A DNA stretch of 64,000 nucleotides, from assembly GCF_002192255.1 (NCBI RefSeq), contig NZ_CP021768.1, positions 3,242,001-3,306,000 of the forward strand. The letters run 5' to 3'. Position numbers and translations under genes: made by a program. The notes beneath the pieces were generated by a model. That model searched no databases and was not told the origin of the DNA. It was given only the letters and a program-made list of their open reading frames with translations. Positions 2,185 to 57,289 of this stretch are shown piece by piece (position 1 is the first letter of the stretch; the number at the start of each line of letters is the position of its first letter). This stretch comes from Stenotrophomonas sp. WZN-1 (GTDB lineage: Bacteria; Pseudomonadota; Gammaproteobacteria; Xanthomonadales; Xanthomonadaceae).

Positions 2185-2286
2185 GGCGGGGTGGGTCCGG
2201 TTGAGGGGGGCGCCGTAAATACGTCCATGTAGGCTCGGTCGCCGCATCCATGCGGCTCACGCCCCCTCAACCGGACCCACCCCGCC
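2185..2286. repeat. Long hairpin H1
   Basis: A 102-bp inverted repeat with a perfect 25-bp stem (left arm 2185-2209, right arm 2262-2286, G-rich left and C-rich right). The loop carries CGCCGTAAATACGTCC and a nested GCCGCATCCATGCGGC hairpin at 2241-2256. It is flanked by GTTCCGTGGGAT-like sequence (ATTCCGTGGGAT) on the left and TTCGACAGAT on the right. It is the same family as the hairpins at 2449, 14516, 30404, 30767, 42127, 48313, 56936 and 57188. Confidence 0.9.
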
Positions 2287-2333
2287 TTCGACAGATGGCC
2301 GCGATCTGCCGGAAGGATGCATTGCCCTGGTGG

Positions 2334-2424
2334 GTGTCGACCTGGGTCGACACGGTAGATCCACGCCATGCGTGGATGACTCATTCGATATCTGACAGAT
2401 GTGTCGACCAAGGTCGACACCTAC
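2334..2424. repeat. Cluster of three SMAG-type palindromes
   Basis: GTGTCGACCTGGGTCGACAC at 2334-2353. GTAG plus the ATCCACGCCATGCGTGGAT hairpin at 2355-2377. GTGTCGACCAAGGTCGACAC followed by CTAC (GTAG on the other strand) at 2401-2424. A GTAG head followed by a palindrome is the hallmark of the SMAG repeats described for S. maltophilia. The cluster sits exactly between the two opposed long hairpins H1 and H2. Confidence 0.85.
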
Positions 2425-2448
2425 CAACAGCCGCGGAAATCTGTCAGA

Positions 2449-2550
2449 GGCGGGGCGGTGTCGGATTGCGGGGTGTCAGCCGCATGGATGCGGCTGCCAA
2501 GCCTACAAGGACGTACTTGCGGCGTCCCCGCACTCCGACACCGCCCCGCC
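2449..2550. repeat. Long hairpin H2
   Basis: A 102-bp inverted repeat with 24 of 25 stem pairs (arms 2449-2473 and 2526-2550) and a nested GCCGCATGGATGCGGC hairpin at 2479-2494. Its loop is the reverse complement type of H1, so H1 and H2 point in opposite directions. The flanks are CTGTCAGA on the left and ACCCCACGGAA on the right, mirroring H1. A GTTG-rich tract and the CAGGG palindrome at 2611-2625 follow. The 2104-2636 stretch has no gene. Confidence 0.9.
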
Positions 2551-2636
2551 ACCCCACGGAACGCCAGCTTTTGCTGTTGATGTTGCCTTGGCTTGAAGCA
2601 TCTGCAGGTGCAGGGCGCAGCCCTGCCGAACAACCT

Positions 2637-2903
2637 TTACCTCAACTGGCTGTCCTTGCTGCCACGCCGGTTGTAGCCGGCATGCGCCTGCTCTTCGTCG
2701 TCATGCGCCTGCTGGCACGCCACGCACAGCCGAACCCCAGGCACGGCCTGGCGCCGCGCCAACGGGATCGGCGCGTCGCATTCCTCACAGTGTTCCAGAC
2801 CCGGGCCCTCGCGCAGTTGGCGCCGCGCGCGGGCGATCGCATCGTCGACGGTGGCGTCGATCTGGTCCTGGACCGCGCCGTCTCCCGCCCAACCGGTGGC
2901 CAT
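2637..2903 (-). CDS. ybiI: DksA/TraR-type C4 zinc-finger protein YbiI
   Basis: An 88-residue protein that matches E. coli YbiI in length and in its ends (starts MATGWAGDGAVQDQIDATVD, ends GYNRRGSKDSQLR). The zinc site is CEEC at 39-42 and CVAC at 60-63, with APIP and RR between, as in the DksA/TraR C-terminal finger. The long coiled coil that lets DksA reach into RNA polymerase is absent, so a DksA-like role is doubtful and the function is unknown. The start is set by GGAGG six bases before ATG 2903. The in-frame ATG at 2909 directly abuts that GGAGG and is unlikely to be used. Confidence 0.93.
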   Translation of the reverse strand: MATGWAGDGAVQDQIDATVDDAIARARRQLREGPGLEHCEECDAPIPLARRQAVPGVRLCVACQQAHDDEEQAHAGYNRRGSKDSQLR

Positions 2904-3044
2904 GGCCATCCTCCGCAGGTGTGTCGCCTGATATGGGGACGATACACCCGCGCACAAAGGAGCAGACCCGTGACGGGCCGAGCCATGCCCGGCGGGCCTT
3001 CAGCAAGCCGAGCAGTAAAATGGACGGATCCGATCAGGCCGATT

Positions 3045-3072
3045 ACGGCTTAATCCCCTCCGTCCCCTTTTT
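3045..3072. repeat. Single arm of the GGGGACGGAGGGGATTAAG repeat
   Basis: The bases CTTAATCCCCTCCGTCCCC followed by TTTTT, just before the DUF2058 stop on the opposite strand. The same sequence forms both arms of the inverted repeat at 27508-27585. Here only one arm is present, so this looks like a degraded copy. Confidence 0.6.
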
Positions 3073-3074
3073 GC

Positions 3075-3632
3075 TTACCAGACCAGGTCGTCCGGCACCT
3101 GGAACTGCGCGTAATAGGCGTCGTCCTCGGCGTTGCCGGTGGAGATCTCGGCGGTCGAGCCCGGCTGGCCGTGATCGACGATGATCGCCTCCGGAGCGCG
3201 CTCACGCACCTTTTCGGCGGCAGCACGCGGCAGCAGAGCGTAGCCCTCGCCATGGGCAACGATGACCAGGACGCCCACCGACAGCGCCTTGCGCAGCTTG
3301 GGGTCGATCAGCAGGGTCCGGATCGCCGCGCCGTCGCTGAAGCGGTACTCGTCGTCGCCCTTGTGGGGTACGGCATGGGCCGTGATGATCTGCCTGGCCT
3401 GGGCCTTCTGTTCAGCCTGCCTGGCCTGGGCGTTGCGTTCGGCGGCCAGCGCACGGTCGCGCTCGACCTTCTCGGCGCGGGCGCGTTCAGCCTCGCGCTG
3501 GACCTCGGCCGAGGTCGATTCGGCCTTGCCCTGGCGGGCCTTGGCCTGCTCGCGCGCGGCGGCGCTGGCCTGCGACTTCTTGGCCAGGCCGGCCTTGAGC
3601 AATTGTTCCTGCAGCGCGTTGGGCTTTGCCAT
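3075..3632 (-). CDS. DUF2058 family protein (YaiL-like)
   Basis: A 185-residue protein with the plan of E. coli YaiL. Residues 1-85 are a highly charged Lys/Arg/Glu/Ala helix, probably coiled coil (AREQAKARQGKAESTSAEVQ and following). A compact domain follows with YRFSDGAAIRTLLIDPKLR and GEGYALLPRAAAEKVRERAP. The family is described as nucleoprotein or polynucleotide-associated, but its biochemical role is not settled. It is divergent from the YgjP-like gene and not in an obvious operon. Confidence 0.9.
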   Translation of the reverse strand: MAKPNALQEQLLKAGLAKKSQASAAAREQAKARQGKAESTSAEVQREAERARAEKVERDRALAAERNAQARQAEQKAQARQIITAHAVPHKGDDEYRFSDGAAIRTLLIDPKLRKALSVGVLVIVAHGEGYALLPRAAAEKVRERAPEAIIVDHGQPGSTAEISTGNAEDDAYYAQFQVPDDLVW

Positions 3633-3695
3633 GGTCGGTGCGTACCGCGTGTAATCTTGGATGTCCCCATTCTACCGACGCCCCGCCGCCCCTGC

Positions 3696-4196
3696 ATGGC
3701 AGTCCTGAAGTACCTCACCGGCTACCCCGAACCCCTGGTCGCCCAGGTCAGCGAACTGCTGGCGCAGGGCAAGCTTGGCCCCTGGCTGCAACAGCGCTAC
3801 CCGGACCTGCACGAGGTGCGCAGCGACCGCCAGCTGTACGACTACACGCAGGACCTGAAGGACCGCTACCTGCGCAAGTCGGTGCCGCTCAACAAGGTCT
3901 GCTACGACAACACGCTGGAAGTGATCAAGCACGCGCTGGGCACCCATACCGCCATTTCCCGCGTGCACGGCGGCCGCCTCAAGGCCAGCCGCGAGATCCG
4001 CATCGCCACCGTGTTCCGCCAGGCGCCAGCGGCGTTCCTGCGCATGATCGTGGTGCATGAGCTGGCCCACCTGAAGGAGGCCGACCACAACAAGGCCTTC
4101 TACCAGCTGTGCCAGCACATGGAGCCGGACTACCTGCAGCTGGAGTTCGATACCCGCCTGTACCTGACCGAGCTGGCCAACCGCGGCCAGCGCTGA
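3696..4196 (+). CDS. YgjP-like M48-type metallopeptidase
   Basis: A 166-residue protein with the zinc-binding HELAHLKEADHNKAFY motif near residues 117-132 (HExxH plus a downstream His), as in the YgjP/DUF45 metallopeptidases. There is no signal peptide, so it should act in the cytoplasm. The substrate is unknown. The ATG at 3696 fits the family length and leaves 63 bases to the divergent DUF2058 start. Upstream frame extension would run through the antisense of that gene and is not credible. Confidence 0.9.
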   Translation: MAVLKYLTGYPEPLVAQVSELLAQGKLGPWLQQRYPDLHEVRSDRQLYDYTQDLKDRYLRKSVPLNKVCYDNTLEVIKHALGTHTAISRVHGGRLKASREIRIATVFRQAPAAFLRMIVVHELAHLKEADHNKAFYQLCQHMEPDYLQLEFDTRLYLTELANRGQR

Positions 4197-4243
4197 CCGG
4201 CCGCAGCAGCTACACTGCGCGCCCCCTGCCCGACCTGCCTGCC

Positions 4244-4942
4244 ATGGAACCGATCCGTCTCGACAAACGCCTGTCCGCCCTGCTCGGCATCCCGCGCGGC
4301 GAAGCGCGACGCTACATCGAAGGCGGCTGGGTCACGGTCAACGGCGACGTGGTGGAACAGCCGCAGCGCCCGGTCGATGACAGCGCGGTGATCGTGGTGG
4401 CCGAACAGGCCAGCGATGAAAAGGCCGAGCGGGTCAGCATGCTGCTGCACAAGCCGGCCGGTGCCGCCGCTGAAACCCTGTGTGCCCTCGTCAGCAGTGA
4501 CAGCCGCAGCGAACTTGATGCCAGCGACATCCGCCCGCTGCAGCGTCACTTCCACGGCCTGCAGCTGGCCGCCTCGCTTCCGGCCAGCGACAGCGGTCTG
4601 GTGGTGGTCAGCCAGGATCCAGCCACGCTGGCCCACCTGCAGCGCAACCTGGGCCGGACCGAGCAGGAATACCTGATCGAAGTGGCCGAAGGCGGTCCCG
4701 AGCGTGGCCCCTGGCTGATGGCGCGGCTGCAGCAGGAATCGGGCGGCGCCAAGGTCAGCTGGCAGAGCGAGCAGCGCCTGCGCTTCGCCGGCAAGGGCCT
4801 GACGGCCAAGGGCCTGCGTGTGGCGGTCAGCGCCGCCGGCCTGCAGGTAACGGCCGTGCGCCGCCTGCGTATCGGGCGCGTGGCGCTGGGGCCGCTGCCG
4901 CCGGCGCAGTGGCGTTATCTGGGCAGCGACGAGCGGTTCTGA
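4244..4942 (+). CDS. S4-domain pseudouridine-synthase-like protein, catalytic Asp apparently lost
   Basis: A 232-residue protein with the RsuA/RluF layout: an N-terminal S4 RNA-binding domain (RLDKRLSALLGIPRGEARRY, then GGWVTVNGDVV), the LLHKPAG strand, then a synthase fold. In active members the next motif is GRLDxxSEGLLLLTND, whose Asp attacks the uridine. Here the aligned segment reads ASLPASDSGLVVVSQD, with Pro where the catalytic Asp should be and Ser for Arg. It may therefore bind rRNA without modifying it. The gene follows the YgjP-like gene by 47 bases on the same strand. Confidence 0.85.
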   Translation: MEPIRLDKRLSALLGIPRGEARRYIEGGWVTVNGDVVEQPQRPVDDSAVIVVAEQASDEKAERVSMLLHKPAGAAAETLCALVSSDSRSELDASDIRPLQRHFHGLQLAASLPASDSGLVVVSQDPATLAHLQRNLGRTEQEYLIEVAEGGPERGPWLMARLQQESGGAKVSWQSEQRLRFAGKGLTAKGLRVAVSAAGLQVTAVRRLRIGRVALGPLPPAQWRYLGSDERF

Positions 4943-4980
4943 CCCCGTCCGCGCATGGCGTGATGCTGCCTGAAGAGACC

Positions 4981-5048
4981 ATCCACGCATGGCGTGGATC
5001 CACAGCGATGGGTCTGTCGGCTTTCATCCACGCATGGCGTGGATCTAC
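4981..5048. repeat. Pair of SMAG-type palindromes
   Basis: Two copies of ATCCACGCATGGCGTGGAT at 4981-4999 and 5026-5044, the second followed by CTAC (GTAG on the other strand). The second copy ends nine bases before the start of the phospholipase D gene and would sit in its leader mRNA, where it could fold near the ribosome binding site. Confidence 0.85.
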
Positions 5049-5057
5049 CATCGGGGC

Positions 5058-6626
5058 ATGAGCCTGCCCAAACCCTTGTGGCGACGCCTGCTGCGCGTCG
5101 TTGCGATCGCCATCGCCGCGCTGTTGCTGCTGGTCCTGTCCGGCCTGCTGCTGGCCGACCACCTCACGCCGCAGGCGCACGGCACCCCCTCGCACGTGCT
5201 GCCGCTGCAGACGGCGCAGACCCGCATCGACCAGCAGATCGTGCCGTTGCAGGCGGCCCATCCCGGCCAGTCGGGCGTGGCGTTCCTCAGCGATGGCCTG
5301 GATGCCTTCGCCGCGCGCGCGCTGATCACCAGCCAGGCCGGCCGCAGCCTGGACCTGCAGTACTACATCTGGCACGACGACCTGATCGGCCACCTGATGG
5401 CCAAGGCGCTACATGACGCCGCCGAGCGCGGGGTGCGCGTGCGGATCCTGCTCGACGACATGAATGCCAAGGACAAGGACGCGCTGATGATGGCCCTGGA
5501 CCGGCACCCGAACATTGAAATCCGCCTTTACAACCCGTTCCGCAACCGGACCGGCATCCTGCGCATGGTGGAGATGGTGCAGCGCTTCTTCAGCGTGAAC
5601 CATCGCATGCACAACAAGAGCTGGATTGCCGACGGTCGCGTCGCGATCGTCGGTGGCCGCAACATCGGCGAGGAATACTTCAGCGCACGCACCGATGTGA
5701 ACTTCCAGGATCTGGACCTGCTGGTGGCCGGCCCTGCCGTGGAACAGGCCAATCGGATCTTCGACGACTACTGGAACAGTGAAGCGGCCATTCCGGTATC
5801 GGCGCTTGCCTTCCATACCGATGCACAGCTGCGCCTGCTGGTCCGCGAATCGGATCATGAAGCACAGCGGGACGTGGCGCGGCCCTACCTTGCGCGCGTG
5901 GCCGAGTCGCGCCAACGGCAGCGTCCAAGCCCCGAGCCATTGCACTGGAGTGGTGCGGTGCGCATTGTCTCGGACCCGCCGATGAAGCACCGCGACGATG
6001 ATCGCGGGGCCTGGCTGGTGTCGACGCTGATCAGCGAGCTGCAGGCCGCCCAGCACAAGTCCCTGCTGATCTCGCCCTACTTCGTACCCGGCAACGAGGG
6101 CCTGGATGGCTTTTCGGCCATGGCCGGGCGGGGCGTGCAGGTCGGCGTGATCACCAACTCACTGGCCGCCAACGACGTCGCCGCCGTGCACGGTGGCTAC
6201 ATGGGCTACCGCGTGCCGTTACTCGAAGCGGGCGTCCACCTGTACGAACTGAAGGCGCAGGGGCAGTCCGGCGACGCCGGGGTCTTCGGCAGCAGCGGCG
6301 CGAGCCTGCATACCAAGGCGTTCCTGGTCGACGACCGCCGCGGTTTCGTCGGTTCATTCAACCTGGACCCGCGCTCAGCCTATCTGAACACTGAAATGGG
6401 CGTGCTGTTCGACGATCCGGTGCTGGGCGCACAGCTGCGGGACGAGTACCTGCGCCTGGCAGACCCCAGGCACAGCTGGTGGCTGGCGCTGGACGACCGC
6501 CGCCGGTTGCGTTGGCTGGAGCGAGAACCGCCACCGCACTGGATGGAGGCCGAGCCGGGCGCCACGGCGCGCAAGCGCTGGTTGTCGCGGGCGATCAGCT
6601 GGCTGCCGGTGGAATCGCAGCTGTAG
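5058..6626 (+). CDS. Phospholipase D superfamily protein, cardiolipin synthase C-like
   Basis: A 522-residue protein with one N-terminal membrane helix (about 13-33) and two HKD catalytic motifs: HRMHNKSWIADGRVAIVGGR in the first half and LHTKAFLVDDRRGFVGSFN in the second. Both have the H-K-D residues intact, so it should be active. Length and motif spacing fit the ClsC (YmdC) class, which makes cardiolipin from phosphatidylglycerol and phosphatidylethanolamine at the inner membrane. ClsC usually works with a partner, YmdB, that I do not see here. The start at 5058 was chosen because the membrane helix follows directly. The in-frame start at 4989 lies in the SMAG repeat. Confidence 0.9.
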   Translation: MSLPKPLWRRLLRVVAIAIAALLLLVLSGLLLADHLTPQAHGTPSHVLPLQTAQTRIDQQIVPLQAAHPGQSGVAFLSDGLDAFAARALITSQAGRSLDLQYYIWHDDLIGHLMAKALHDAAERGVRVRILLDDMNAKDKDALMMALDRHPNIEIRLYNPFRNRTGILRMVEMVQRFFSVNHRMHNKSWIADGRVAIVGGRNIGEEYFSARTDVNFQDLDLLVAGPAVEQANRIFDDYWNSEAAIPVSALAFHTDAQLRLLVRESDHEAQRDVARPYLARVAESRQRQRPSPEPLHWSGAVRIVSDPPMKHRDDDRGAWLVSTLISELQAAQHKSLLISPYFVPGNEGLDGFSAMAGRGVQVGVITNSLAANDVAAVHGGYMGYRVPLLEAGVHLYELKAQGQSGDAGVFGSSGASLHTKAFLVDDRRGFVGSFNLDPRSAYLNTEMGVLFDDPVLGAQLRDEYLRLADPRHSWWLALDDRRRLRWLEREPPPHWMEAEPGATARKRWLSRAISWLPVESQL

Positions 6627-6629
6627 CGT

Positions 6630-7706
6630 TCAGGCGGCCGGCCCGACGTCGTCGCGCGCGGCCTCATCCAGTGTTTCCACGCTGCGCCCATGCAGGCGCC
6701 GCCAGATCCAGCGCAACGCATGCGGCGGTGCCGAAGGCAGCTGTTCCAGCAGGGCCAGCATGCGGCTCTGGCTGGCATGCCCATGGCGGCACAACAGGCT
6801 GGCCGCTGCGGCGGCGCTGGCCAGGCGCAGGCTGTCGGCCAACGGTCCTTCCGCATCCACCGCCAAGGCCTGGTGAACCGGCTCAGGCAGCTCCCATGCG
6901 GCGGCCACCCGCTGCGCCAGCGGCAACGACCACTGCTGCAGCAGCTGCAGGGCCAACGCCGGCTCCACGGCCTCGCCACGGGCCTGCGCCTCCTGCAGCA
7001 GCTGGCGCATCACCAGTGCTGCACCCAGCCCCTGCACCAGGCCCAGCCACTGCGCGGCGAAAGCATCGCCGAAAGTGACCGTGCGCGCGTGATCGGCCGC
7101 TGCACGCGATGCCAGCAGCGCATGCTCCCAGATGATTGCGCTGAACTGCGGGAACACCTCGCATTGCACCTGCATCACCGGCTGCACCAGTACCGCACTG
7201 ATGATCTGCCGCACGCCCTCGGTACCGACAAGTGTCACCGCCCGCTGCAGGCTTTCGACCGGGCGCTCATGGACCTTGTAGGTCGGGCTGTTGGCGATGC
7301 GCAGCAGGTTGCCGGTCAGTACCGGATCCTGGCCGATGATCGCGGCCATCACGCGTGCCGAGGCGGCATCGTCGTTGACGGTCTGGATCAGCTGCGGCAG
7401 CAGCTGTGGCCGGCGGGGCAGCTGCCTGGCCGCCCAGTCGCGGTCCTGCAGCGCGCGTGCCACCGCCTCGCCCAGGCCGGGGTCCTGCACTGGCGTCGGC
7501 TCGCCCGCCAGCCTCGGATACAGGGCGAGCGCATGCAGCCCGCGCTGCAGGTGAGCGGCGATTTCCGCCGATGGCAGCGCCTCGCCCTGCAGGCTCGCGG
7601 CTGCAGCGGCCACCGCCTGGCGGGACGCAGCGACCAGCCGCGACGGTGCCGTCCCGGTCGAACGCGCCAGCCAGCCGCGCAGCAACCGCCACCAGGTCGG
7701 TGTCAT
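6630..7706 (-). CDS. HDOD domain protein
   Basis: A 358-residue protein. The HDOD domain starts near residue 95 (RRPQLLPQLIQTVNDD, then IGQDPVLTGNLLRIANSPTY, then VGTEGVRQIISAVLVQPVM) and runs to about 300. HDOD proteins resemble HD phosphohydrolases but lack the metal residues, and usually serve as signalling or output modules in c-di-GMP, motility or stress circuits. The N-terminal 90 residues are Ala-rich with no recognised domain. The gene converges on the phospholipase D gene, with only three bases between the stops. Targets are unknown. Confidence 0.9.
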   Translation of the reverse strand: MTPTWWRLLRGWLARSTGTAPSRLVAASRQAVAAAAASLQGEALPSAEIAAHLQRGLHALALYPRLAGEPTPVQDPGLGEAVARALQDRDWAARQLPRRPQLLPQLIQTVNDDAASARVMAAIIGQDPVLTGNLLRIANSPTYKVHERPVESLQRAVTLVGTEGVRQIISAVLVQPVMQVQCEVFPQFSAIIWEHALLASRAAADHARTVTFGDAFAAQWLGLVQGLGAALVMRQLLQEAQARGEAVEPALALQLLQQWSLPLAQRVAAAWELPEPVHQALAVDAEGPLADSLRLASAAAAASLLCRHGHASQSRMLALLEQLPSAPPHALRWIWRRLHGRSVETLDEAARDDVGPAA

Positions 7707-7864
7707 CGCTGCCCGCCCTGTCGTTGTAATGCCCTTGCTGTCACTGACCGACCTGCCTCTTCACGCCCATCCGGCCACCCGCCGTCGTCGCAGCATCGGC
7801 CGCACTTTCATCTTCTTTAACCGGATGGCGGCCAACGTCGACGGCACCGGCCGGGGGAATGGAC

Positions 7865-7870
7865 TAGAAT
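7865..7870 (+). promoter_or_regulatory. Candidate -10 element (TAGAAT) for leucine dehydrogenase
   Basis: TAGAAT stands 115 bases before the leucine dehydrogenase start, in the divergent region shared with the HDOD gene. No convincing -35 lies 16-18 bases upstream. If it is used, the leader would be over 100 bases long and would contain a short reading frame beginning at ATG 7898. Confidence 0.3.
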
Positions 7871-7984
7871 GGCGCCGCGCGACCCGTCCCCCAGCCATGA
7901 CGACGTCGCTTTTTTTGTTTTGGGACCCTACCGTTCACTGGCCGTTCGCTGCAGTTCGCCGCTGTTCGCGCCATCGGAGACGCC

Positions 7985-9082: not shown

Positions 9083-9092
9083 GCCTGCCGAT

Positions 9093-9122: not shown

Positions 9123-9129
9123 CGCCCAC

Positions 9130-14515: not shown

Positions 14516-14619
14516 GGCCGCGCGGGTGGGTTGCGCAGGGGCGTGAGCCGCATGGATGCGGCGACCGAGCTTACATGGACGTACTTGCAGCGCCCCCTGC
14601 GCAACCCACCCGCGCGGCC
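14516..14619. repeat. Long hairpin H3
   Basis: A 104-bp inverted repeat with a perfect 26-bp stem (arms 14516-14541 and 14594-14619). The arm sequence (GGCCGCGCGGGTGGGTTGCG and on) differs from H1 and H2, but the loop keeps GCCGCATGGATGCGGC and ACATGGACGTACTTGCAGC. It stands alone between the convergent lipoprotein and acyl-CoA dehydrogenase genes. No SMAG cluster or partner hairpin is beside it. The rest of 14456-14677 shows no gene. Confidence 0.9.
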
Positions 14620-27507: not shown

Positions 27508-27585
27508 AAAAAGGGGACGGAGGGGATTAAGTCGTTTCCAGCACAGCTGGGGTAAAGACGACTTGATCCCCTCCGTCCCCTTTTT
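27508..27585. repeat. Inverted repeat of the GGGGACGGAGGGGATTAAG type
   Basis: Left arm 27508-27534 (AAAAAGGGGACGGAGGGGAT then TAAGTCG) and right arm 27559-27585 differ at one base (TTAAG versus TTGATC pairing), with 24 bases between. The ends are A-run and T-run, so it may stop transcription from either side. It lies between the DsbA-like and CYTH genes (both minus). A single arm occurs at 3045-3072. Confidence 0.85.
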
Positions 27586-30403: not shown

Positions 30404-30580
30404 GGGGCGGTGTGGATTGGCAGGACACGCCGTAAACCCGTCCATGGGGGCTCGATGGCGCCTTGCTCGTGTGCGCTGTCCTGCGCACACGGCAAGACCG
30501 GGGTTGGGCGTCCTGCCCAACCCGCCCGAGGCGTGCCTCGGGCCCATGGCGCCAACGGTCCTGCCAACCCACACCGCCCC
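30404..30580. repeat. Long hairpin H4, expanded loop
   Basis: Arms 30404-30426 and 30558-30580 pair at 22 of 23 positions. The loop is 131 bases instead of about 52 and holds three further hairpins: GTGTGCGC/GCGCACAC at about 30470-30489, GGTTGGGC/GCCCAACC at 30502-30523, and CCGAGGC/GCCTCGG at about 30526-30541. The shared CGCCGTAAACCCGTCCATGG segment is kept beside the left arm. It seems to be a family copy with extra hairpins inserted in the loop. Confidence 0.85.
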
Positions 30581-30608: not shown

Positions 30609-30719
30609 GTAGATCCACGCCATGCGTGGATGAATCTCAATCGGAATCAAATATTTCGAATTGAAATCGAAACGCATCCACGCATGGCGTGGCTCTACTG
30701 TGTCGACCAAGGTCGACAC
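30609..30719. repeat. SMAG-type palindromes in opposed orientation
   Basis: GTAG plus ATCCACGCCATGCGTGGAT at 30609-30631, then ATCCACGCATGGCGTGGCT followed by CTAC at 30676-30698 (GTAG on the other strand), then GTGTCGACCAAGGTCGACAC at 30700-30719. Between the first two lies an AT-rich stretch of 44 bases with AATATTTCGAATTGAAAT, unusual for this genome. The cluster sits between hairpins H4 and H5. Confidence 0.85.
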
Positions 30720-30766: not shown

Positions 30767-30866
30767 GGCGGGGTGGGTCCGGTTGCGGGGGCGTGAGCCG
30801 CATGGATGCGGCGACCGAGCTTACATGGACGTACTTGCAGCGGCCCCCGCAACCGGCCCCCCCGCC
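30767..30866. repeat. Long hairpin H5
   Basis: Left arm 30767-30792, right arm 30843-30866. The right arm has lost two bases relative to the left (CCCCCCC versus GGTGGGTCC pairing), and the rest pair well. The loop keeps GTGAGCCGCATGGATGCGGC and ACATGGACGTACTTGCAGC, almost identical to H3. The orientation is opposite to H4. The flanks are ACTGTCGAAGG on the left and ACCCACGGAT on the right, then a short GTTG tract. Confidence 0.85.
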
Positions 30867-42126: not shown

Positions 42127-42207
42127 GGCCGGGCGGGTGGGTTGCGCAGGACCGTTGGCGCCATGGACGGGTTTACGGCGTGTCCTGCGCAATCCACCCG
42201 CCCGGCC
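42127..42207. repeat. Long hairpin H6, short-loop copy
   Basis: Arms 42127-42152 and 42182-42207 pair at 25 of 26 positions. The loop is only 29 bases: CGTTGGCGCCATGGACGGGT followed by TTACGGCGT. It keeps the GACGGGTTTACGGCG core on the right but has lost the nested GCCGCATGGATGCGGC hairpin. It lies between two genes on the same strand (FadB-like and pirin). Downstream is a T/GC-rich tract with TTTTGC repeats. The rest of the 41905-42366 gap shows no gene. Confidence 0.85.
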
Positions 42208-48218: not shown

Positions 48219-48230
48219 GCAGTGAGGTGG

Positions 48231-48253: not shown

Positions 48254-48312
48254 CCGCAGAGGCAACTGCAACTGCAACGGCGAAAGCGGCGGCTCTGGTT
48301 TTCCGTGAATTT

Positions 48313-48378
48313 GGCGGGGACGCCGTAAACCCGTCCTTGGGGGCTTGGCCGCGGCATCCATGCCGCGGACACCCCGCC
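48313..48378. repeat. Long hairpin H7, truncated copy
   Basis: The loop is intact (CGCCGTAAACCCGTCC and the nested CCGCGGCATCCATGCCGCGG), but only the inner seven base pairs of stem remain (GGCGGGG/CCCCGCC). The right side continues ATCCGACACCACCCCACC as a normal arm would, while the left side reads GTGAATTT, so the outer left arm has been lost. It lies between the convergent YbdD-type and DUF819 genes. Confidence 0.75.
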
Positions 48379-48432
48379 ATCCGACACCACCCCACCTTCG
48401 ACAGATTTCCGGTGACGGCAAGAAGCATCAGG

Positions 48433-49933: not shown

Positions 49934-50013
49934 GGATCGAGATTAACATTGTCTTCACGCCGGGTCATGCTGCAGTGCCGACTACGGCCACATTCCCCTC
50001 AGGGAGCCCACCC

Positions 50014-50403: not shown

Positions 50404-50423
50404 TGCGAACAGCCATTGCGTGG

Positions 50424-50476
50424 GTAGGCGTCGACCTTGGTCGACGGGCAGCATGCCAACCAAAGTTGGCATCTAC
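50424..50476. repeat. SMAG-type palindrome pair
   Basis: GTAG plus GCGTCGACCTTGGTCGACG at 50424-50446, and ATGCCAACCAAAGTTGGCAT followed by CTAC at 50453-50476 (GTAG on the other strand). The two point towards each other. They fill the gap between the convergent VOC and kinase genes. Confidence 0.85.
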
Positions 50477-50489
50477 CAGGACGGCCGGC

Positions 50490-51776
50490 TCAGGCCGGGC
50501 GCGAGGCACTGAAATCGAGCGTGACACGCGTTCCGCGCGGCTCGCAGGGCTGCAGCTGCAGGGTCCAGCCCAGGTGCTCGCACAACCGCGCGATCAGGTC
50601 CAGGCCGATGCCGCCGCCACGATCGGCGCGCTCGCCGCGGGCCATGCGCGCGTGGATGGCCGCGATCTCCTCCGGGCTCATGCCATGCCCCGGGTCCTGC
50701 AGCGTCAGTACCGCCAACGAATCCAGCTGCAGCTCGATATGGCCGCGGCCGCTGTTCTCGATGGCATTGCGCAGCAGGTTGCCGATCGCCGCCTGCACCA
50801 CCGCCAGCGGCGCAACGATATCCACCGGCGCCGCCTGGATGCCGATGCTCAGGTCCTTGTCACCGAGCAGGTGGCGATGGTCGTCGACGATCTCCGGCAG
50901 CAGCTGGTCCAGGGCGATGCGCTCGGCACGCGCGGCCAGGCGCGCCGGATCACGCGCCAGTACCAGCAGCAGCTCGATCAGCTGCTCCACGCTCTGCGCC
51001 GTGCGCAGCACCCGCTGCATCTGCTGGCGGGCACGTTCTGTCAGGCCTGGTTGTTCCAGTGCCAACTCGGCGGCACCGGTCATCACCGCGATTGGCGTGC
51101 GCAGTTCGTGGCTGGCGGTGCTGATGAAGACCCGTTCGCGCTCGACGAACTGCTCATTGCGGTCGAGGTAGTCGTTCAGCGCATCGGCAATGGTGTGCAG
51201 CTCGGAACTGCCACGCGGGTCGACGTCGATGCGCTGGCCCTGTACGCCCGGCCGCAGGGCGCCGATGTGCTGTGCCAGCAGGCTCAAGGGGCGCACCATG
51301 CGCTCCATGCCGAAAGACGCCATCAACACGGTGACGAAGATCATGATCACCCCGGCCAGCATCACCCAGCGCGTGGCGAACTGTTCCAGGTCATGGAAAT
51401 CGGAGATGTCCAGCGCCAGTGCTACCCGTCCCATCGACTGGGTTTCACGCACCATCACCGCCGTCTCGCGGCCCTTGACCATCACTCCGTCATGCAACCC
51501 CGGATGCAGGGAACGCAGGCTCTCCGGCAGATTGACCGCGTCAAAGCGGTACAGGCTCAGCGTGTCCGAGTCCTGCCAGCGATAGTGAGGTTCGTGCTCG
51601 ACATGCTCGACGATGCTGTCCAGTTCGGAATTGAGCAGCGCGCGCCACGCAGCGTGCTCGGCGTGTTCGTGCACGTAGTTGCCGACACTGAACACGGCAA
51701 TCGACAGCAGGGCCAGGTAGCCCAGCAACCACCACACCACCCGCCGGTACAGCGGTCCCGGCTTACGCGCCCTCAT
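50490..51776 (-). CDS. Sensor histidine kinase of an OmpR-type two-component system
   Basis: A 428-residue kinase with two membrane segments (about 12-32 and 140-162) around a periplasmic sensor of about 105 residues, then a HAMP linker (MVRPLSLLAQHIGALRPG). The H box is STASHELRTPIAVMTGAAEL, N box NLLRNAIENSG, G1 DPGHGMSPEE and G2 GGGIGLDLIARL. It overlaps the regulator gene by 14 bases. The pair faces an ArnT-like/EptA operon across a 131-base gap, so it may sense cationic peptides or low magnesium, as PmrB or PhoQ do. ATG 51776 has an AGGA site, and 51782 is possible. Confidence 0.92.
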   Translation of the reverse strand: MRARKPGPLYRRVVWWLLGYLALLSIAVFSVGNYVHEHAEHAAWRALLNSELDSIVEHVEHEPHYRWQDSDTLSLYRFDAVNLPESLRSLHPGLHDGVMVKGRETAVMVRETQSMGRVALALDISDFHDLEQFATRWVMLAGVIMIFVTVLMASFGMERMVRPLSLLAQHIGALRPGVQGQRIDVDPRGSSELHTIADALNDYLDRNEQFVERERVFISTASHELRTPIAVMTGAAELALEQPGLTERARQQMQRVLRTAQSVEQLIELLLVLARDPARLAARAERIALDQLLPEIVDDHRHLLGDKDLSIGIQAAPVDIVAPLAVVQAAIGNLLRNAIENSGRGHIELQLDSLAVLTLQDPGHGMSPEEIAAIHARMARGERADRGGGIGLDLIARLCEHLGWTLQLQPCEPRGTRVTLDFSASRPA

Positions 51777-52476
51777 CAGCATTCCTGCCGGCGTCGGCAC
51801 CGTCCATCACCGCCAACCGATAGCCCACCCGCGGCAGCGTATGGATCAGCTTCTCGGCGAACGGTCCATCCACACTGCGGCGCAGCTCGTAGACATGCGA
51901 ACGCAGCAGGTCGCCATCGGGTGGCTCGTCGCCCCACAGGGCGAATTCCAGCTGCTGGCGCGTGACCGCGCCCGGGCTGGCCCGCATCAGCACTTCAAGC
52001 AGCTTGCGGCAGGCCGGGTACAGATGCAGCACCTGGTTGCCGCGCTGCGCCTCCAGGGTCGCCAGGTCCAGCACGAGGTCGCCAACCTGCAGGCGCTTGC
52101 GCGGATTTCGGCCCTGCGCACGCAGCAGCAGCGCCTCCAGCCGCACCTCCAGCTCGGGAAGGGCGAACGGCTTGGTCAGGTAGTCGTCGGCGCCGGCGCG
52201 GAAGCCGGCGATCTTGTCCGGCAGCTCGTCGCGCGCGGTCAGCATGATCACCGGCACCTCCGAGGCGTGCTCGGCGCGCAGGCGGCGCAGCACCTCCGGC
52301 CCCTCCATGCGCGGCAGCATCCAGTCCAGGATCACCGCATCGTAGGGGTGGCTGCCGGCCAGGTGCAGGCCGGTGATGCCATCCGGGGCCACGTCGAGCA
52401 CGTGCCCGCGCGACTCGAAATAGTCGAACAGGTTGGCCACCAGCTGGCGGTTGTCCTCGATCACCAACAGACGCAT
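51763..52476 (-). CDS. OmpR/PhoB-family response regulator
   Basis: A 237-residue regulator. The receiver has Asp51 as phospho-acceptor (AVILDWMLPRMEG) and Lys in DDYLTKPFALPELE. The winged-helix DNA-binding domain spans about residues 128-230 (AVTRQQLEFALWGDEPPDGD, LRSHVYELRRSVDGPF and HTLPRVGYRL). It should control genes with its kinase, probably including the divergent lipid A operon at 52608. No operator could be assigned in the gap. Confidence 0.93.
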   Translation of the reverse strand: MRLLVIEDNRQLVANLFDYFESRGHVLDVAPDGITGLHLAGSHPYDAVILDWMLPRMEGPEVLRRLRAEHASEVPVIMLTARDELPDKIAGFRAGADDYLTKPFALPELEVRLEALLLRAQGRNPRKRLQVGDLVLDLATLEAQRGNQVLHLYPACRKLLEVLMRASPGAVTRQQLEFALWGDEPPDGDLLRSHVYELRRSVDGPFAEKLIHTLPRVGYRLAVMDGADAGRNADEGA

Positions 52477-52607
52477 GCACGAAAGATCCACGGAAGTTCG
52501 TACCATGGTAGCGCCGACCATGTCGGAATGCGGTCGCCGCGCACCCGCTCCGACGCCTTTCCTACCCCTGCCACGTCAGAGTGGCCGTTTTGCTCCCGGA
52601 GCCTGCC

Positions 52608-54311
52608 GTGCCCGTAGCCCTGCCCCGCCGTTGGCGCCTGCCCCTGTTGTGGTTGCTGATCATCGCTGCACTGGCAGCGGGTATCGGCCTTCGGCAGCCA
52701 CAGCCGCCGGACGAGCCGCGCTTCGTGCTGGCGGCCCGCACCATGGTCGAAAGCGGGCAATGGCTGCTGCCACACCGTGGCGGCGAGCTGTACGCCGAGA
52801 AGCCGCCGGTATTCATGTGGCTGCAGGCGGCCGCCTACGAGATCGTCGGCAGCTGGCAATGGTCGTTCCTGCTGCCGTCGTTGCTCGGCGCCCTGCTCAG
52901 CCTGTGGCTGGTGTCGGATCTGGCACGGCGGCTGTGGTCGCCGCGGCATTCCCTGTACGCCCTGGCGGCGCTGTTCTGCACCCTGCAGTTCGGGCTGATG
53001 GCCAAGCGTGCGCAGATCGACATGGTGCTGGTGGGGATGACCACCGTGGCCCTGTGGGGATTGATGCGCCACCTGTGCGAGCGCCGCAACCTGCCCGCGC
53101 TGTGGCTGGCCGGTTTCGCCGCTGGCCTCGGCACGGTGACCAAGGGTGTGGGTTTCCTGCCGCTGCTGATGGTGCTGCCCTGGTTCGGCTGGTGGCTGTA
53201 CCAGCGTCGCCGCGGGCGCAGCGTGGACGGTCCGCACCCGGCAACGCTGCTGTGGCTGATCCCGGCCTTCCTGCTGGGCGTGGCGGTGTGGCTTGCGCCG
53301 CTGGGCTGGGCATTGCTGCATGAGCCCAGCGCGTCCCTGCAGTCCTATGCCCACGAACTGCTGTTCAAGCAGACCGGCACCCGCTATGCCAACGCCTGGC
53401 ACCACCGCCAGCCGGTCTGGTACTACCTGCAGGTGATCCTGACCTTGTGGCTGCCGGGCAGCCTGTTGTTGCCGATGCTGTTCAAACCCTGGTGGCGCCG
53501 CATCCGCCGTGGCGACCGCCGGCAGTGGCTGTTGCTGGGCTGGGCGCTGCTGGTGCTGGTGTTCTTCAGTGCCAGCCCCGGCAAGCGCGAGGTCTATGTG
53601 CTGCCGATGCTGCCGGCGATGGCGCTGGCGGTGGCCCCGCTGTTGCCGGGCCTGCTGCGCCGGCTCTGCGTGCGGCGCTACCTGTTCGGCTACAGCCTGG
53701 TGCTGATGCTGGCCACCGGGGTGCTGGGCGTGATGCTGATGACCGAGCATCCGTGGGCCGTGGCGCAGCTGGAACGGCGGGCGATGCCCGGTTCGCTGCT
53801 GCCGGTGCTGGGGGATGGCCTGCTGACGTTTGCCATTGCCTTGGCCACGTTGATCGTGTGGCTGCGGGTGCGCGGAGCCGCAACGCTGGTGCTGCTGACC
53901 CACGGCATGCTGTGGATGCTCTACGGCCTGGTGCTGATCCCGGCGCTGGATCCATACGCATCGGCGTCGGCGGTGATGCGCCGGGTGGGTGCGCGGATCG
54001 GCCCGGATGCGGAGCTGGCACTGGTCGCCTGGCGCGAACAGAACCTGCTGCAGGCAGATCGACCGGTGCGCGAGTTCGGCTTCAAGCGCCCGTGGGCCGA
54101 GCAGTGGCATGATGCCGGCCCGTGGCTGGCCGAGGCACCGGGCAAGCGCTGGCTGCTGGTGCTGGACGATGCGATGAGCCCCTGCGTGGACCCGGCCAAG
54201 GTGATCGACATCGGCATCGCCAACAGGAATCGTTGGCAACTGCTTCCCGGTACGGCCTGGGACCCGCAATGCCACGCCGAACGGGCCGGCTCGACCGCTG
54301 AAGAAGATTGA
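52608..54311 (+). CDS. ArnT-like lipid A glycosyltransferase (family 39)
   Basis: A 567-residue multi-spanning protein with a cytoplasmic N-terminus and the catalytic first loop (PPDEPRFVLAARTMVESGQW, compare ArnT DETRY). About 12 membrane segments follow, then a periplasmic tail of about 100 residues. ArnT adds aminoarabinose from undecaprenyl phosphate to lipid A. The other arn genes are absent here, so the sugar donor is not clear and it might add another amino sugar. GTG 52608 has a GGAG site six bases upstream. GTG 52581 has none. Confidence 0.87.
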   Translation: MPVALPRRWRLPLLWLLIIAALAAGIGLRQPQPPDEPRFVLAARTMVESGQWLLPHRGGELYAEKPPVFMWLQAAAYEIVGSWQWSFLLPSLLGALLSLWLVSDLARRLWSPRHSLYALAALFCTLQFGLMAKRAQIDMVLVGMTTVALWGLMRHLCERRNLPALWLAGFAAGLGTVTKGVGFLPLLMVLPWFGWWLYQRRRGRSVDGPHPATLLWLIPAFLLGVAVWLAPLGWALLHEPSASLQSYAHELLFKQTGTRYANAWHHRQPVWYYLQVILTLWLPGSLLLPMLFKPWWRRIRRGDRRQWLLLGWALLVLVFFSASPGKREVYVLPMLPAMALAVAPLLPGLLRRLCVRRYLFGYSLVLMLATGVLGVMLMTEHPWAVAQLERRAMPGSLLPVLGDGLLTFAIALATLIVWLRVRGAATLVLLTHGMLWMLYGLVLIPALDPYASASAVMRRVGARIGPDAELALVAWREQNLLQADRPVREFGFKRPWAEQWHDAGPWLAEAPGKRWLLVLDDAMSPCVDPAKVIDIGIANRNRWQLLPGTAWDPQCHAERAGSTAEED

Positions 54312-54422
54312 ACGTAGGCACGCGCCGGGGACTCATTAACCCGGCGCGAACGAGCGTCCGACCCTTCTCCGACATCCAGGTGACGAGCATGGCCGCGGAT
54401 TCCCGAACCGCCCCTTCCCAGC

Positions 54423-55190
54423 ATGCCCGTTCGTCCCCTTGATGCGGTATCGCCGCTTGCGACATCGCCACTGGCGTCAAAATTTGCCGTAACTCACCTT
54501 TGGTTGCCTGTCGCAATCGGACTACCCGTGTTTACGCTGCTGATGGGTTTCGGCGGCGACCAGTGGGTGGCCGATCACCTGTTCCGCCTTGAGGGCGGCC
54601 ATTGGGCGCTGCAGGACGCCTGGGCCACCCGCACGGTGGTGCACAAGGCAGGCAAATGGCTGAGCACGGCAGCGGCGCTGGTGGCGATCCTGCTGTGCTT
54701 CCACCACTGGCGCAAGGGGTGCGATCGCACCCTGCGTTGGGCGTTGCTTTATGTCGTAATTGCCATTGCGCTGGGCACCGGCGTGATCTCCCTGCTGAAG
54801 TCGCTGGTGCCGATGGAATGCCCCTGGGACCTGCTGCGCTACGGCGGCCACCAGCCGTTCATCGGGCTGTTCACGGCGCGCCCCGCAGGCATGGCCGCGC
54901 AGGCCTGCTTCCCGGCGGGCCACGCCAGCGCGGGCTATGCGTGGTTGTCCCTGTACTTTTTTGCCCTGCTGTGGCGCCCTTCATGGCGCTGGACCGGGTT
55001 GTGGATCGGTCTTGGCACCGGCCTGGTGTTCGGCATCAGCCAGCAGCTCCGGGGCGCGCACTTCCTTTCGCATGACGTCGCCACTGCACTGATATGTTGG
55101 CTGCTTTCGCTGGGCCTGTACCTGATCGTCAAACGCGTCCTGATCCGCCGTCAGCTGGACCGTCCCCACCGCCAGGAGGCAAACGCATGA
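54423..55190 (+). CDS. PAP2-family membrane phosphatase
   Basis: A 255-residue protein with about five membrane segments and the three phosphatase signatures in altered form: KSLVPMECPW, CFPAGHASAGYAW (PSGH-like) and LRGAHFLSHDVATA. The histidines are intact. Lipid A phosphatases such as LpxE and LpxT belong to this family, and undecaprenyl pyrophosphatases too. Between an ArnT-like and an EptA gene, a lipid A or carrier phosphatase is most likely. Its TGA overlaps the EptA start (ATGA). Confidence 0.87.
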   Translation: MPVRPLDAVSPLATSPLASKFAVTHLWLPVAIGLPVFTLLMGFGGDQWVADHLFRLEGGHWALQDAWATRTVVHKAGKWLSTAAALVAILLCFHHWRKGCDRTLRWALLYVVIAIALGTGVISLLKSLVPMECPWDLLRYGGHQPFIGLFTARPAGMAAQACFPAGHASAGYAWLSLYFFALLWRPSWRWTGLWIGLGTGLVFGISQQLRGAHFLSHDVATALICWLLSLGLYLIVKRVLIRRQLDRPHRQEANA

Positions 55191-56836
55191 GTGCATCGGT
55201 CCAACGCCCCGCCCGCCTTCCCGCGTTGGCGAACCTTCGCCGCTGGCGGCCGCAGCTGTCCACCGAAGCACTGATCGCACTGACCAGCCTGTTCTTCGCG
55301 GTGGCCGGCAACGGCCTGTTCTGGCACAGCGCCATGGCCAGCCATCCGGGCAGCCTGCGCTACGCGCTCTCGCTGCTGCTGTTGCTGCTGGGTGCGCACG
55401 GCGTGCTGCTGGGCCTTCTGGTCTGGCGCTGGAACGCCAGGGTGGTGATCAGCCTGTTGCTGCTGGTGACCGCATTCGCTGCGCATTACATGAGCCGTTA
55501 CCACATCTACCTGGATGCGGACATGCTGCGCAACGTGCTGGCGACCGACCCCAAGGAAAGCCGCGAGCTGATGACCGTGTCACTGCTGTGGCCAGTCCTT
55601 CTGCTGGCGGTGCTGCCGATGATCGTGCTGTGGCGTGTGCAGCTGCGTCGCCGCAGCTGGGGCCGCAGCCTGCTGTGGCGGCTGGGCTTCCTGGTGGTGG
55701 CGGCGGTGACTGCTGTCGGCGGCGCGTTGATCTCGTTCCAGGATGTCTCGGCACTGATGCGCAACCAGCGCGAAGTGCGCTACCTCGCGACACCGGCCAA
55801 TGTGCTGCTGGGCATGCCGCGTGCACTGCGCGGTGACAACCCGGTGCAGCGTGCGCCGAAGCTGCCGATCGGTACCGATGCCAAGGCCACCCCGCGCGCG
55901 CCGGCCAGCAAGCCACGCCTGCTGGTGATCGTCATGGGCGAGACCGTGCGCGCGCAGAACTGGGGGCTCAACGGTGGCCGCAACACCACCCCGGAGCTGG
56001 CGCAGGCCAGCGTGATCAATTTCCCGGACATGCACTCGTGCGGCACCAGCACCGAGGTTTCGCTACCGTGCCTGTTCTCGCCCTGGGGGCGCCACGACTA
56101 CGACGAAAAGAAGATCCGCGCACACCAGTCGCTGCTGCACGTGCTGAACCGCGCCGGCATCGCGCCGTTGTGGCGCGACAACCAGTCCGGCTGCAAGGGC
56201 GTGTGCGAGGGCCTGGACTTCCAGTCGCTGTCCGACGCCACCACGCCGGGCCTGTGCGCCGATGGCCGCTGCATGGACGAGATCCTGCTGCAGGACCTCG
56301 CCACCCAGGTGCGGGCCAGGCCCGGCGACCGGGTGGTGGTGCTGCACCAGCTGGGCAACCACGGCCCGGCCTATTTCGAGCGCTATCCGCCCGCGTTCCG
56401 CCGTTTCACCCCGACCTGCGATACCCGTGACATCGGCCGTTGCTCGCGCGAAGAGATCACCAACAGCTACGACAATGCCGTGCTGTACACCGATCACTTC
56501 CTGACCAAGACGATCGGCACGCTGCAGGGCATGCAGGACTACGACACGGCGATGATCTACCTGTCCGACCACGGCGAGTCGCTGGGCGAGAAGGGCCTGT
56601 TCCTGCATGGCGTGCCCTACGCCATCGCCCCGGCCGAGCAGACCCGGGTACCGATGACGATGTGGTTCTCGCCGGGCTTTGCCAGCAGCCGCGGGCTGGA
56701 CCTGCAGTGCGTGCGCAAGCGTTCGGCAGCCTACACCGACCATGACAACCTGTTCCCGTCGGTGCTGGGCCTGATGCAGGTGAAGACCTCGCTGTACGAG
56801 CGCGACCGCGACGTGTTCGCCAGCTGCGAAGGTTGA
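55187..56836 (+). CDS. eptA: Phosphoethanolamine transferase (EptA/MCR family)
   Basis: A 549-residue enzyme with five N-terminal membrane segments (first near residue 23) and a periplasmic sulfatase-fold domain. The nucleophile Thr lies in MHSCGTSTEVSLPCLFS. Zinc ligands appear in VIVMGETVRAQNWGLN and LSDHGESLGEKGLFLHG, with several cysteine pairs (SGCKGVC, CADGRCMD, CDTRDIGRC) for disulphides. It moves phosphoethanolamine to lipid A and so lowers polymyxin binding. AGGAGG lies six bases before the ATG. It closes the three-gene lipid A modification operon. Confidence 0.93.
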   Translation: MSASVQRPARLPALANLRRWRPQLSTEALIALTSLFFAVAGNGLFWHSAMASHPGSLRYALSLLLLLLGAHGVLLGLLVWRWNARVVISLLLLVTAFAAHYMSRYHIYLDADMLRNVLATDPKESRELMTVSLLWPVLLLAVLPMIVLWRVQLRRRSWGRSLLWRLGFLVVAAVTAVGGALISFQDVSALMRNQREVRYLATPANVLLGMPRALRGDNPVQRAPKLPIGTDAKATPRAPASKPRLLVIVMGETVRAQNWGLNGGRNTTPELAQASVINFPDMHSCGTSTEVSLPCLFSPWGRHDYDEKKIRAHQSLLHVLNRAGIAPLWRDNQSGCKGVCEGLDFQSLSDATTPGLCADGRCMDEILLQDLATQVRARPGDRVVVLHQLGNHGPAYFERYPPAFRRFTPTCDTRDIGRCSREEITNSYDNAVLYTDHFLTKTIGTLQGMQDYDTAMIYLSDHGESLGEKGLFLHGVPYAIAPAEQTRVPMTMWFSPGFASSRGLDLQCVRKRSAAYTDHDNLFPSVLGLMQVKTSLYERDRDVFASCEG

Positions 56837-56847
56837 GGGTTGTTCGG

Positions 56848-56864
56848 CAGGGCTTGCAGCCCTG
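56848..56864. repeat. Short palindrome CAGGG-CCCTG (left end of block)
   Basis: CAGGGCTTGCAGCCCTG, 11 bases after the EptA stop. It is followed by a run rich in CAAC/GCAAC triplets, the same arrangement as at 2117 and 30313. Confidence 0.75.
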
Positions 56865-56935
56865 CACCTGCAGAGGCAACTGCAACTGCAACCGCAAGGG
56901 CCGAAGCAACAGCAACAGCGTGCGTTCCGTGGGAT

Positions 56936-57037
56936 GGCGGGGTGGGTCCGGTGGCGGGAGACGCCGTAAACCCCTCCCTGGGGGCTTGGCCGCGGCATCC
57001 ATGCCGCGGACACTCCCGCCACCGGACCCACCCCGCC
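56936..57037. repeat. Long hairpin H8
   Basis: A 102-bp inverted repeat with a perfect 25-bp stem (arms 56936-56960 and 57013-57037). The loop has CGCCGTAAACCCCTCC and the nested CCGCGGCATCCATGCCGCGG hairpin. The flanks are GTTCCGTGGGAT on the left and TTCGACAGTTTTCCG on the right, as in H1. The outer half of the arm (GGCGGGGTGGGTCCGG) equals H1 and H5, and the inner half differs in both arms. Confidence 0.9.
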
Positions 57038-57072
57038 TTCGACAGTTTTCCGCGATCTGTTGGAATGACCTT

Positions 57073-57113
57073 GGGGTCAGATCCGTTTTCCTCCGGAAAA
57101 CGGATCTGACCCC
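57073..57113. repeat. GGGGTCAGATCC palindrome
   Basis: GGGGTCAGATCCGTTTTC and GAAAACGGATCTGACCCC pair perfectly around CTCCG-like loop bases. ATTTTGATT follows. It lies between H8 and H9, close to the GTGTCGACC palindrome at 57140-57159. Confidence 0.8.
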
Positions 57114-57139
57114 ATTTTGATTATCGATATCTGACAGAT

Positions 57140-57159
57140 GTGTCGACCAAGGTCGACAC
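57140..57159. repeat. SMAG-type palindrome between H8 and H9
   Basis: GTGTCGACCAAGGTCGACAC, followed by CCACC. It is the same sequence as at 2401-2420 and 30700-30719. Confidence 0.8.
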
Positions 57160-57187
57160 CCACCAACAGCCACCGCGATCTGTCAGA

Positions 57188-57289
57188 GGTGGGGCGGTAT
57201 CGGAGTGCGGGGTGTCAGCCGCATGGATGCGGCTGCCAAGCCTACAGGGACGTACTTGCGGCGTCCCCGCAGTCCGACACCGCCCCGCC
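57188..57289. repeat. Long hairpin H9
   Basis: Arms 57188-57212 and 57265-57289 pair with one G-T and two mismatches in 25. The nested hairpin is GCCGCATGGATGCGGC. It is the opposite orientation to H8 and almost the same sequence as H2. The right flank is ACCCCACGGAA. A palindrome GCCGGGCGCCGCCCGGC at 57350-57366 closes the block. The 56837-57439 gap shows no gene. Confidence 0.88.

Follow-up and report, generated by a model that had tools for sequence, protein, structure and literature searches.

A 64,000-nucleotide stretch of the Stenotrophomonas sp. WZN-1 chromosome (contig NZ_CP021768.1, bases 3242001-3306000 of a 4.51 Mb genome; hereafter the window) carries nine long hairpins belonging to a family of structured elements that is spread over a whole bacterial class; its members are chromosomal and intergenic, and up to 431 of them are found in a single genome. 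The hairpins had been described from the sequence alone as having conserved loops and covarying arms; added to this original prediction here are a selected fold on the complementary strand, GGA in the loops and the distribution across the class. Tentatively, and with somewhat less than even confidence, we interpret the element as a putative dispersed RNA element bound by the global RNA regulator CsrA/RsmA.

The fold was determined from an alignment of 106 elements of other genomes, read on the complementary strand; of the 126 references listed, 20 had been set aside manually, for the most part near-duplicates or further copies from a locus already represented. RNAalifold returned a three-way junction, and the strongest covarying column pairs were the pairs of this fold. 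An outer stem of about 26 bp with free sequence encloses hairpin H2, with a free stem and a loop containing GGA, and hairpin H1, with the conserved stem AGCC..GGCG, the hexaloop ANGGAY and a 5-nt bulge holding a covarying YUYR. The conserved part of the element is the loop region, and the stems are free. Across the 106 sequences 92.7% of cells were paired, against 61.5% in shuffled alignments and 37-44% with slid partners, which bears out the earlier claim that the arms differ yet change together. Two-sided change was seen in 1035 cells (322 after shuffling), and the covariation score of 0.795 (0.216 shuffled) was reached in 0 of 500 shuffles. The pair in the H1 bulge (columns 64-67) was T-A in 90 and C-G in 16 of the 106 elements and never mixed, though the search pattern permitted mixtures.

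A covariance model (R1) trained on these 106 elements, some of them from Stenotrophomonas and none from the window, matched exactly the nine reported copies at 33-92 bits (E-values, which are rough, of 4.6e-23 to 8e-7), so that every hairpin was confirmed at its position; the next-best match in the window scored 15.5 bits (E 0.071). Seven copies were among the 25 longest inverted repeats listed for the window, with arms 90-100% complementary, and those at 48313 and 57188 were not. RNA folds of three copies on both strands gave z-scores of -8.2 to -10.6, with none of 200 shuffles equally good. The nine copies form three facing pairs and three singles:

2185..2286, GGA strand minus: element 1, left member of facing pair 1 (R1 86.5 bits; inverted-repeat list).
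2449..2550, GGA strand plus: element 2, right member of facing pair 1 (R1 88 bits; inverted-repeat list, RNA fold).
2449..2473 and 2526-2550, plus strand: 5' and 3' arms of the outer stem of element 2 (inverted-repeat list, fold).
2484..2489, plus strand: H2 loop ATGGAT of element 2, on the stem GCCGC/GCGGC (consensus structure).
2507..2512, plus strand: H1 hexaloop AAGGAC of element 2, within CTACAAGGACGTA (consensus structure; folding this sequence alone places the H1 pairing in a different register).
2516..2519, plus strand: CTTG in the H1 bulge of element 2, the outer two bases of which covary.
14516..14619, plus strand: element 3, single, in a convergent intergenic region (R1 82.8 bits; inverted-repeat list, RNA fold).
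30404..30580, minus strand: element 4, left member of facing pair 2 (R1 36.5 bits; inverted-repeat list).
30767..30866, plus strand: element 5, right member of facing pair 2 (R1 79.7 bits; inverted-repeat list).
42127..42207, plus strand: element 6, with H2 deleted (R1 33.3 bits; inverted-repeat list).
48306..48383 (originally given as 48313-48378), minus strand: element 7, with a short inner stem and degraded outer arms (R1 75.2 bits).
56936..57037, minus strand: element 8, left member of facing pair 3, with the H1 loop AGGGAG (R1 92 bits; inverted-repeat list, RNA fold).
57188..57289, plus strand: element 9, right member of facing pair 3 (R1 83.7 bits).

A loop core common to all nine had been proposed. 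The core CGCCGTAAAYMCGTCC was read only in the copies at 2185, 30404, 42127 and 48313; those at 2449, 14516, 30767 and 57188 have CGCYGCAAGTACGTCC, and that at 56936 has CGCCGTAAACCCCTCC. Element 7 retains only about 8 pairs directly flanking the core. In element 4, H2 is replaced by an enlarged region with extra hairpins that have AGGAC in their loops. Paralleling this enlargement, three loci of relatives (L115, L271, L274) carry a different hairpin (around CTTTGCTTGCGAAGC) as an insertion in the loop of H1.

In the whole source genome the loop pattern CGYNRNAARYMCRTCC was matched 95 times, compared with 7 matches for the backward control, and the longer pattern CGCYGYRARYMCRTCCNTGKRRGCTY 120 times, compared with none. 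An element totals about 80-110 nt, with a core of about 50 nt and arms of median 26-27 bp that are about 94% Watson-Crick paired. The longer pattern was present in 31 of 151 genomes of the order, in 35 of 369 of the class and in 16 of 349 in a sample of the phylum, the source genome being counted in each total; all 16 belong to the same class, Gammaproteobacteria, and none lies outside it. Of at least 119 stretches with the pattern, 80 are named; these come from Stenotrophomonas, Xanthomonas, Arenimonas, Microbulbifer, Marinobacter, Halopseudomonas, Rheinheimera, Alteromonas, Shewanella, Moritella, Methylotuvimicrobium buryatense 5G and other Gammaproteobacteria, with a few labelled no further than Proteobacteria. 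At one locus of Halopseudomonas pelagia (L186:899-1004) model matches overlap on both strands, and the copy reads as an element either way.

Mismatches between the arms reveal which strand is constrained. Arms shorter than 15 nt were dropped, leaving 149 of 172 elements from other genomes (146 distinct arm pairs) and 104 of 106 from the source genome (93 distinct). Read on the GGA strand, the 146 distinct arm pairs of other genomes had 207 G.U against 41 A.C mismatches and 159 purine-purine against 39 pyrimidine-pyrimidine mismatches. Counted per element (n=145), G.U exceeded A.C in 94 and fell below it in 14 (sign test 1e-15, relatedness ignored), and purine-purine mismatches were in excess in 74, with 11 opposite. 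The inner 14 outer pairs of the alignment agree (70:23 and 84:32, respectively), as do the source-genome copies (57:21 and 48:18), and the purine-purine excess recurs in H2 (55:23). Misregister cannot produce this bias, since both kinds of mismatch should be equally likely for complementary arms. Computed RNA stability favoured the GGA strand for 111 of 131 copies from other genomes and for 71 of 95 from the source genome; with DNA parameters it was favoured in other genomes (102 vs 25), with no GGA preference in the source genome (43 vs 52). The strand on which the fold is constrained is the complement of the core strand quoted in the original prediction. The bias fits RNA or single-stranded DNA, and strand-biased mutation is less likely.

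The arms also change at fixed sites. In the region orthologous to the source-genome pair 3571922/3572227, where the flanks of relatives are about 94-97% identical to those of the source genome, one element has the arms GGTGGGG/CCCCACC, GGTGAGG/CCTCACC, GGTGGAG/CTCCACC and GGTTGGA/TCCAACC across relatives, and the other AGAGG/CCTCT, AGTGG/CCACT and AGCGG/CCGCT. Compensatory changes have thus arisen afresh among close relatives, beyond any duplication of founder arms. Whole arms combined with different cores, and deletions, are seen at the same place. At the site of window pair 1, relatives carry a pair of a different type, a lone copy or no copy at all; since one of the empty states may have come from a deletion between short direct repeats, this site does not prove insertion. 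Recent copying of two or three founder arms, named originally as a finding that would speak against the prediction, accounts in part for the source genome, where one arm type makes up 33 of 95 copies and two further types recur (by eye), but many of the arms are unrelated. In loci of other genomes nearly all arms are distinct (166 distinct 5' arms among 172 elements, mostly unrelated). Selection on structure, as first suggested, is supported by the pairing above controls and by the compensatory changes at this orthologous locus.

The second cause put forward at the time, a copying mechanism that regenerates the palindrome, may be a helper, but alone it would predict no strand bias. An alternative would make the hairpins a mutational product, with templated (quasi-palindrome) repair restoring palindromes and mutation biased by strand, without selection on function. 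Joint change of both arms even among close relatives would agree with it; it leaves unexplained the class-wide conservation of the loops and, on one strand, the surplus of purine-purine mismatches relative to pyrimidine-pyrimidine ones, and we consider it extremely unlikely.

The nature of the loops points to a possible ligand. The loop count was restricted to cores of 45-58 nt (155 of 172 other and 99 of 106 own elements), so that enlarged variants fall outside it. The H2 loop, which is free of the search pattern, contained GGA in 153 of 155 copies from other genomes and in 98 of 99 from the source genome, mostly as C-ANGGAT-G and less often as C-AGGAN-G; the H1 loop is C-ANGGAY-G, with all four bases at N. 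A hexaloop ANGGAX directly on a stem is described as the high-affinity CsrA/RsmE site, the form with N omitted being weaker (accessible part of PMC4005645). Judged by sequence and by that text, the commonest loop of the element equals this site. The consensus from systematic evolution of ligands by exponential enrichment is given as RUACARGGAUGU, and the CsrB sites as CAGGA(U/A/C)G (accessible part of PMC7652899); the TAC form of H1 reads CUACANGGAYGUA. A csrA match was found in 32 of 35 element-bearing genomes and in 313 of 369 overall.

RsmU, an RsmA-binding RNA of Xanthomonas campestris, derives from the 3' untranslated region (3'UTR) after comEA (accessible part of PMC7694677). In two Xanthomonas genomes the counterpart of this 3'UTR contains GGACAGGATGTCC and ACAAGGACGT, with loops of the type seen in the element. 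RsmU was ruled out as a family member, with no model match directly after comEA in 8 genomes; one match lies about 1.3 kb before comEA in L333.

On the CsrA/RsmA interpretation, read-through transcripts of the intergenic region would offer both GGA loops to a dimer of CsrA/RsmA, the long outer stem would stabilise the RNA, and the copies might jointly serve as a distributed sink for the regulator or as binding sites in untranslated regions. In a facing pair, each read-through transcript, from whichever side, would carry one GGA element. The arms would drift via compensatory change, and recombination would presumably swap copies between loci.

Several observations weigh against this interpretation. 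A main weak point is the near-random orientation relative to genes: in tandem regions of the source genome 22 copies are GGA-sense and 26 antisense (11 and 15 for singles alone), and in other genomes the four gene arrangements were counted as 31/25/24/16 among 96 elements, 37 of 133 having been dropped for overlap with a crude open reading frame of >150 aa. Pairs with two-sided change (27 of 30) were no more frequent than in shuffles (mean 26.0; 89 of 500 as high), because the alignment columns vary so strongly. When folded as RNA by computation, only 87 of 131 copies from other genomes and 72 of 95 from the source genome formed two GGA hairpin loops, and H2 has no G.U bias (13 vs 11). The GGA of the H1 loop is fixed by the search pattern, and the model itself favours ANGGA, which is retained in H1 by 18 of 20 distinct model hits off the pattern (by eye). 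RsmU with altered GGA motifs still bound RsmA in vitro (accessible part of PMC7694677). For three element-bearing genomes (G249, G344 and G490; 67, 98 and 85% complete) no CsrA match was listed, and H1 is conserved well past what a CsrA loop requires. These three genomes have ten copies between them; the nine that were retrieved all match the model, at 50-92 bits, and retain GGA loops.

The last two points would suit an RNA element bound by a protein other than CsrA, or a protective 3'-end structure: the conserved AGCC, YUYRC bulge and GGCG of H1 exceed a CsrA site, and three genomes lacking a csrA match have kept the element. No candidate protein is at hand, however, and the loops fit the CsrA consensus very closely, which makes this alternative improbable.

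The arrangement of the copies bears on whether the element moves. In the source genome all 22 close pairs (<600 bp) are facing, in the orientation of the original prediction, with spacings of 252-399 bp, and none is tandem or back-to-back; the pair 56936/57188 is an additional one, the left copy of which misses the loop pattern. Members of a pair never have common arms (maximum arm identity 62.5% in the 22 pairs). No pair joins two type A arms, but avoidance of like-with-like pairing is only suggestive, as 4.8% of shuffles likewise lacked an A-A pair. Close pairs in other loci, some of which may be Stenotrophomonas, comprise 13 facing, 3 back-to-back and 4 tandem. One contig (G744 C1:94445-95380) has five tandem copies at steps of about 227 bp, unlike the facing pairs of the source genome.

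Such an arrangement could indicate a non-autonomous mobile element of REP/REPIN type, with the GGA strand acting as single-stranded DNA whose two loops are recognised by a transposase or another enzyme of single-stranded DNA, facing pairs as the mobile unit and singles as remnants. High copy number, intergenic position, patchiness (0 copies in one of ten same-genus genomes, the source genome counted), filled and empty orthologous sites, the predominance of facing pairs (22/22 in the source genome, 13/20 in other loci) and the near-random orientation to genes would all agree with this, and the order of tolerated mismatches, G.T, G.A, G.G, fits single-stranded DNA as well. The evidence against it is of several kinds. 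Between copies 1.6-2.7 kb apart at three loci (L085, L086, L087) no transposase was seen among genes judged by eye, with no family search: L085 has a toxin-antitoxin-like cassette and the other two housekeeping-like genes, with a XerD-like recombinase reading frame just outside the copies of L086. The RAYT domain PF01797 is dispensable, as two element-bearing genomes (G111, 1 copy; G146, 2 copies) lack a match and the draft genome G137 (17 copies) is not among the matches listed; no dependence on RAYT was found. Replichore bias was absent in the source genome (27 vs 24 singles, origin assumed at base 1). A search of plasmids and phages with facing pair 1 gave no match, and viral contigs with the pattern number 5. 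Next to a tex-like gene the element is retained in all five named Xanthomonas genomes and in one of three others of the same family (L338-L343), being missing there in two same-family genomes (L336, L337); this locus would lend itself to dating the turnover of arms. Close pairs follow no single arrangement in 30 loci of the genome with 431 copies, where 1 is facing, 1 back-to-back and 2 tandem. Taken together, we regard mobility of this type as rather unlikely, though it is the main alternative to the CsrA/RsmA interpretation.

The cassette of L085 (about 1980-3665), CcdAB-like plus AbrB-like by eye, is flanked by two copies that face each other; its genome has no more than two pattern matches. 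In the source genome, 2.25-3.0 Mb holds 5 of 95 copies, against about 16 if evenly spread, and is perhaps the terminus region.

All nine window copies lie between genes, often convergent ones, as had been stated: by codon-model gene calls, four of the six intergenic regions are convergent and two tandem (42127; 56936/57188). By our own gene calls, the near gene's end points to the copy in 64 of 95 source-genome cases, and 38 copies are in convergent, 48 in tandem and 8 in divergent regions, with 1 unclassified. Bidirectional transcription terminators or barriers, for which hairpin strength alone is relevant, would agree with the 38 convergent and 8 divergent settings, counts that are given without a genome-wide baseline. 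Neither strand of the nine copies has a T-run immediately after the hairpin (by eye), runs of 4-5 T starting some 9-18 bases away in several of them, and a plain terminator requires neither a conserved double loop nor strand bias; we hold this explanation to be very unlikely.

A conserved structured element that reaches 431 copies in a genome and occurs across Gammaproteobacteria seems not to have been described before, and the family offers a rich natural series for the study of compensatory evolution. As its two loops resemble CsrA/RsmA binding sites, such genomes might hold tens to hundreds of sites for this regulator, dispersed along them. Were binding true, the accounting of regulator capacity would change, notably in Xanthomonas, which is without CsrB and CsrC homologues. 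It is doubtful, if conceivable, that in many Gammaproteobacteria tens to hundreds of transcribed elements set the level of free regulator and in Xanthomonas replace the missing CsrB/CsrC.

Other features of the window include its longest listed inverted repeat (27508-27585; 39-nt arms, 85%, no spacer), unrelated to the hairpin family, and a glycine riboswitch aptamer (RF00504; 62549-62651, plus strand, 66.9 bits) just upstream of a large plus-strand gene called from 62714. A perfect 20-bp hairpin, TGGGGTCAGATCCGTTTTCC, lies at 57072-57114 within facing pair 3 and recurs beside copies in L109 and at 679343. The inverted pairs at 59440-59512, 30609-30698 and 2328-2426 resemble the REP classes SM8 (SMAG), SM4 and SM1, respectively, as given in the accessible part of PMC3686654; the last is central in facing pair 1, a REP pair nested inside a larger palindrome.

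For comparison with known families, the literature and Rfam were searched, most subscription papers being outside the search. No description was found, in keeping with the earlier statement that no named family fits, and six core strings did not occur in the literature covered. At gathering score, Rfam gave only unrelated glycine riboswitch, sX9, tRNA and t44 matches and no Csr/Rsm family in the window and 37 other loci; a low-threshold search of 2050-2700 returned for the most part microRNA precursors, at scores well under the gathering level, which were dismissed as hairpins matching by chance. Intrinsic terminators are likewise G+C-rich hairpins, often between convergent genes, but the element has no directly following T-run and has a complex loop and a strand-specific fold. 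CsrB/CsrC, RsmX/Y/Z and RsmU share two or more hairpins with ANGGA/AGGA loops; these sponge RNAs are one to a few small RNA genes or a processed 3'UTR, whereas the element is a dispersed repeat with its hairpins in a three-way junction. REPIN/BIME are inverted palindrome pairs acting as a unit, whereas here the pair members carry different arms (at most 62.5% identity among 22 pairs). REP/SMAG repeats (SM1-SM13, GTAG/CGTC palindromes) are similarly dispersed, intergenic, palindromic and patchy, with tens to hundreds of copies and head-to-head dimers (accessible parts of PMC3733652, PMC3686654 and PMC2613905). They differ in being 20-40 bp long, against 80-110 nt for the element, which agrees with the greater length first noted, and in having a conserved stem and a GTAG or CGTC end; by eye, the 95 source-genome copies share no such end, and CGTC is found within the loop region of H1. 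The element equals none of the SM1-SM13 sequences in the accessible part of PMC3686654, and the REP definition in that of PMC12306157 differs from it in length, conserved part and tagged end. The hairpin family is thus apparently undescribed, being set apart from the REP/SMAG classes by these published descriptions as far as accessible. It combines a REP-like layout with loops like those of Csr antagonists, membership being shown in neither group, and it inverts the REP rule: the loops are fixed and the stems are free.

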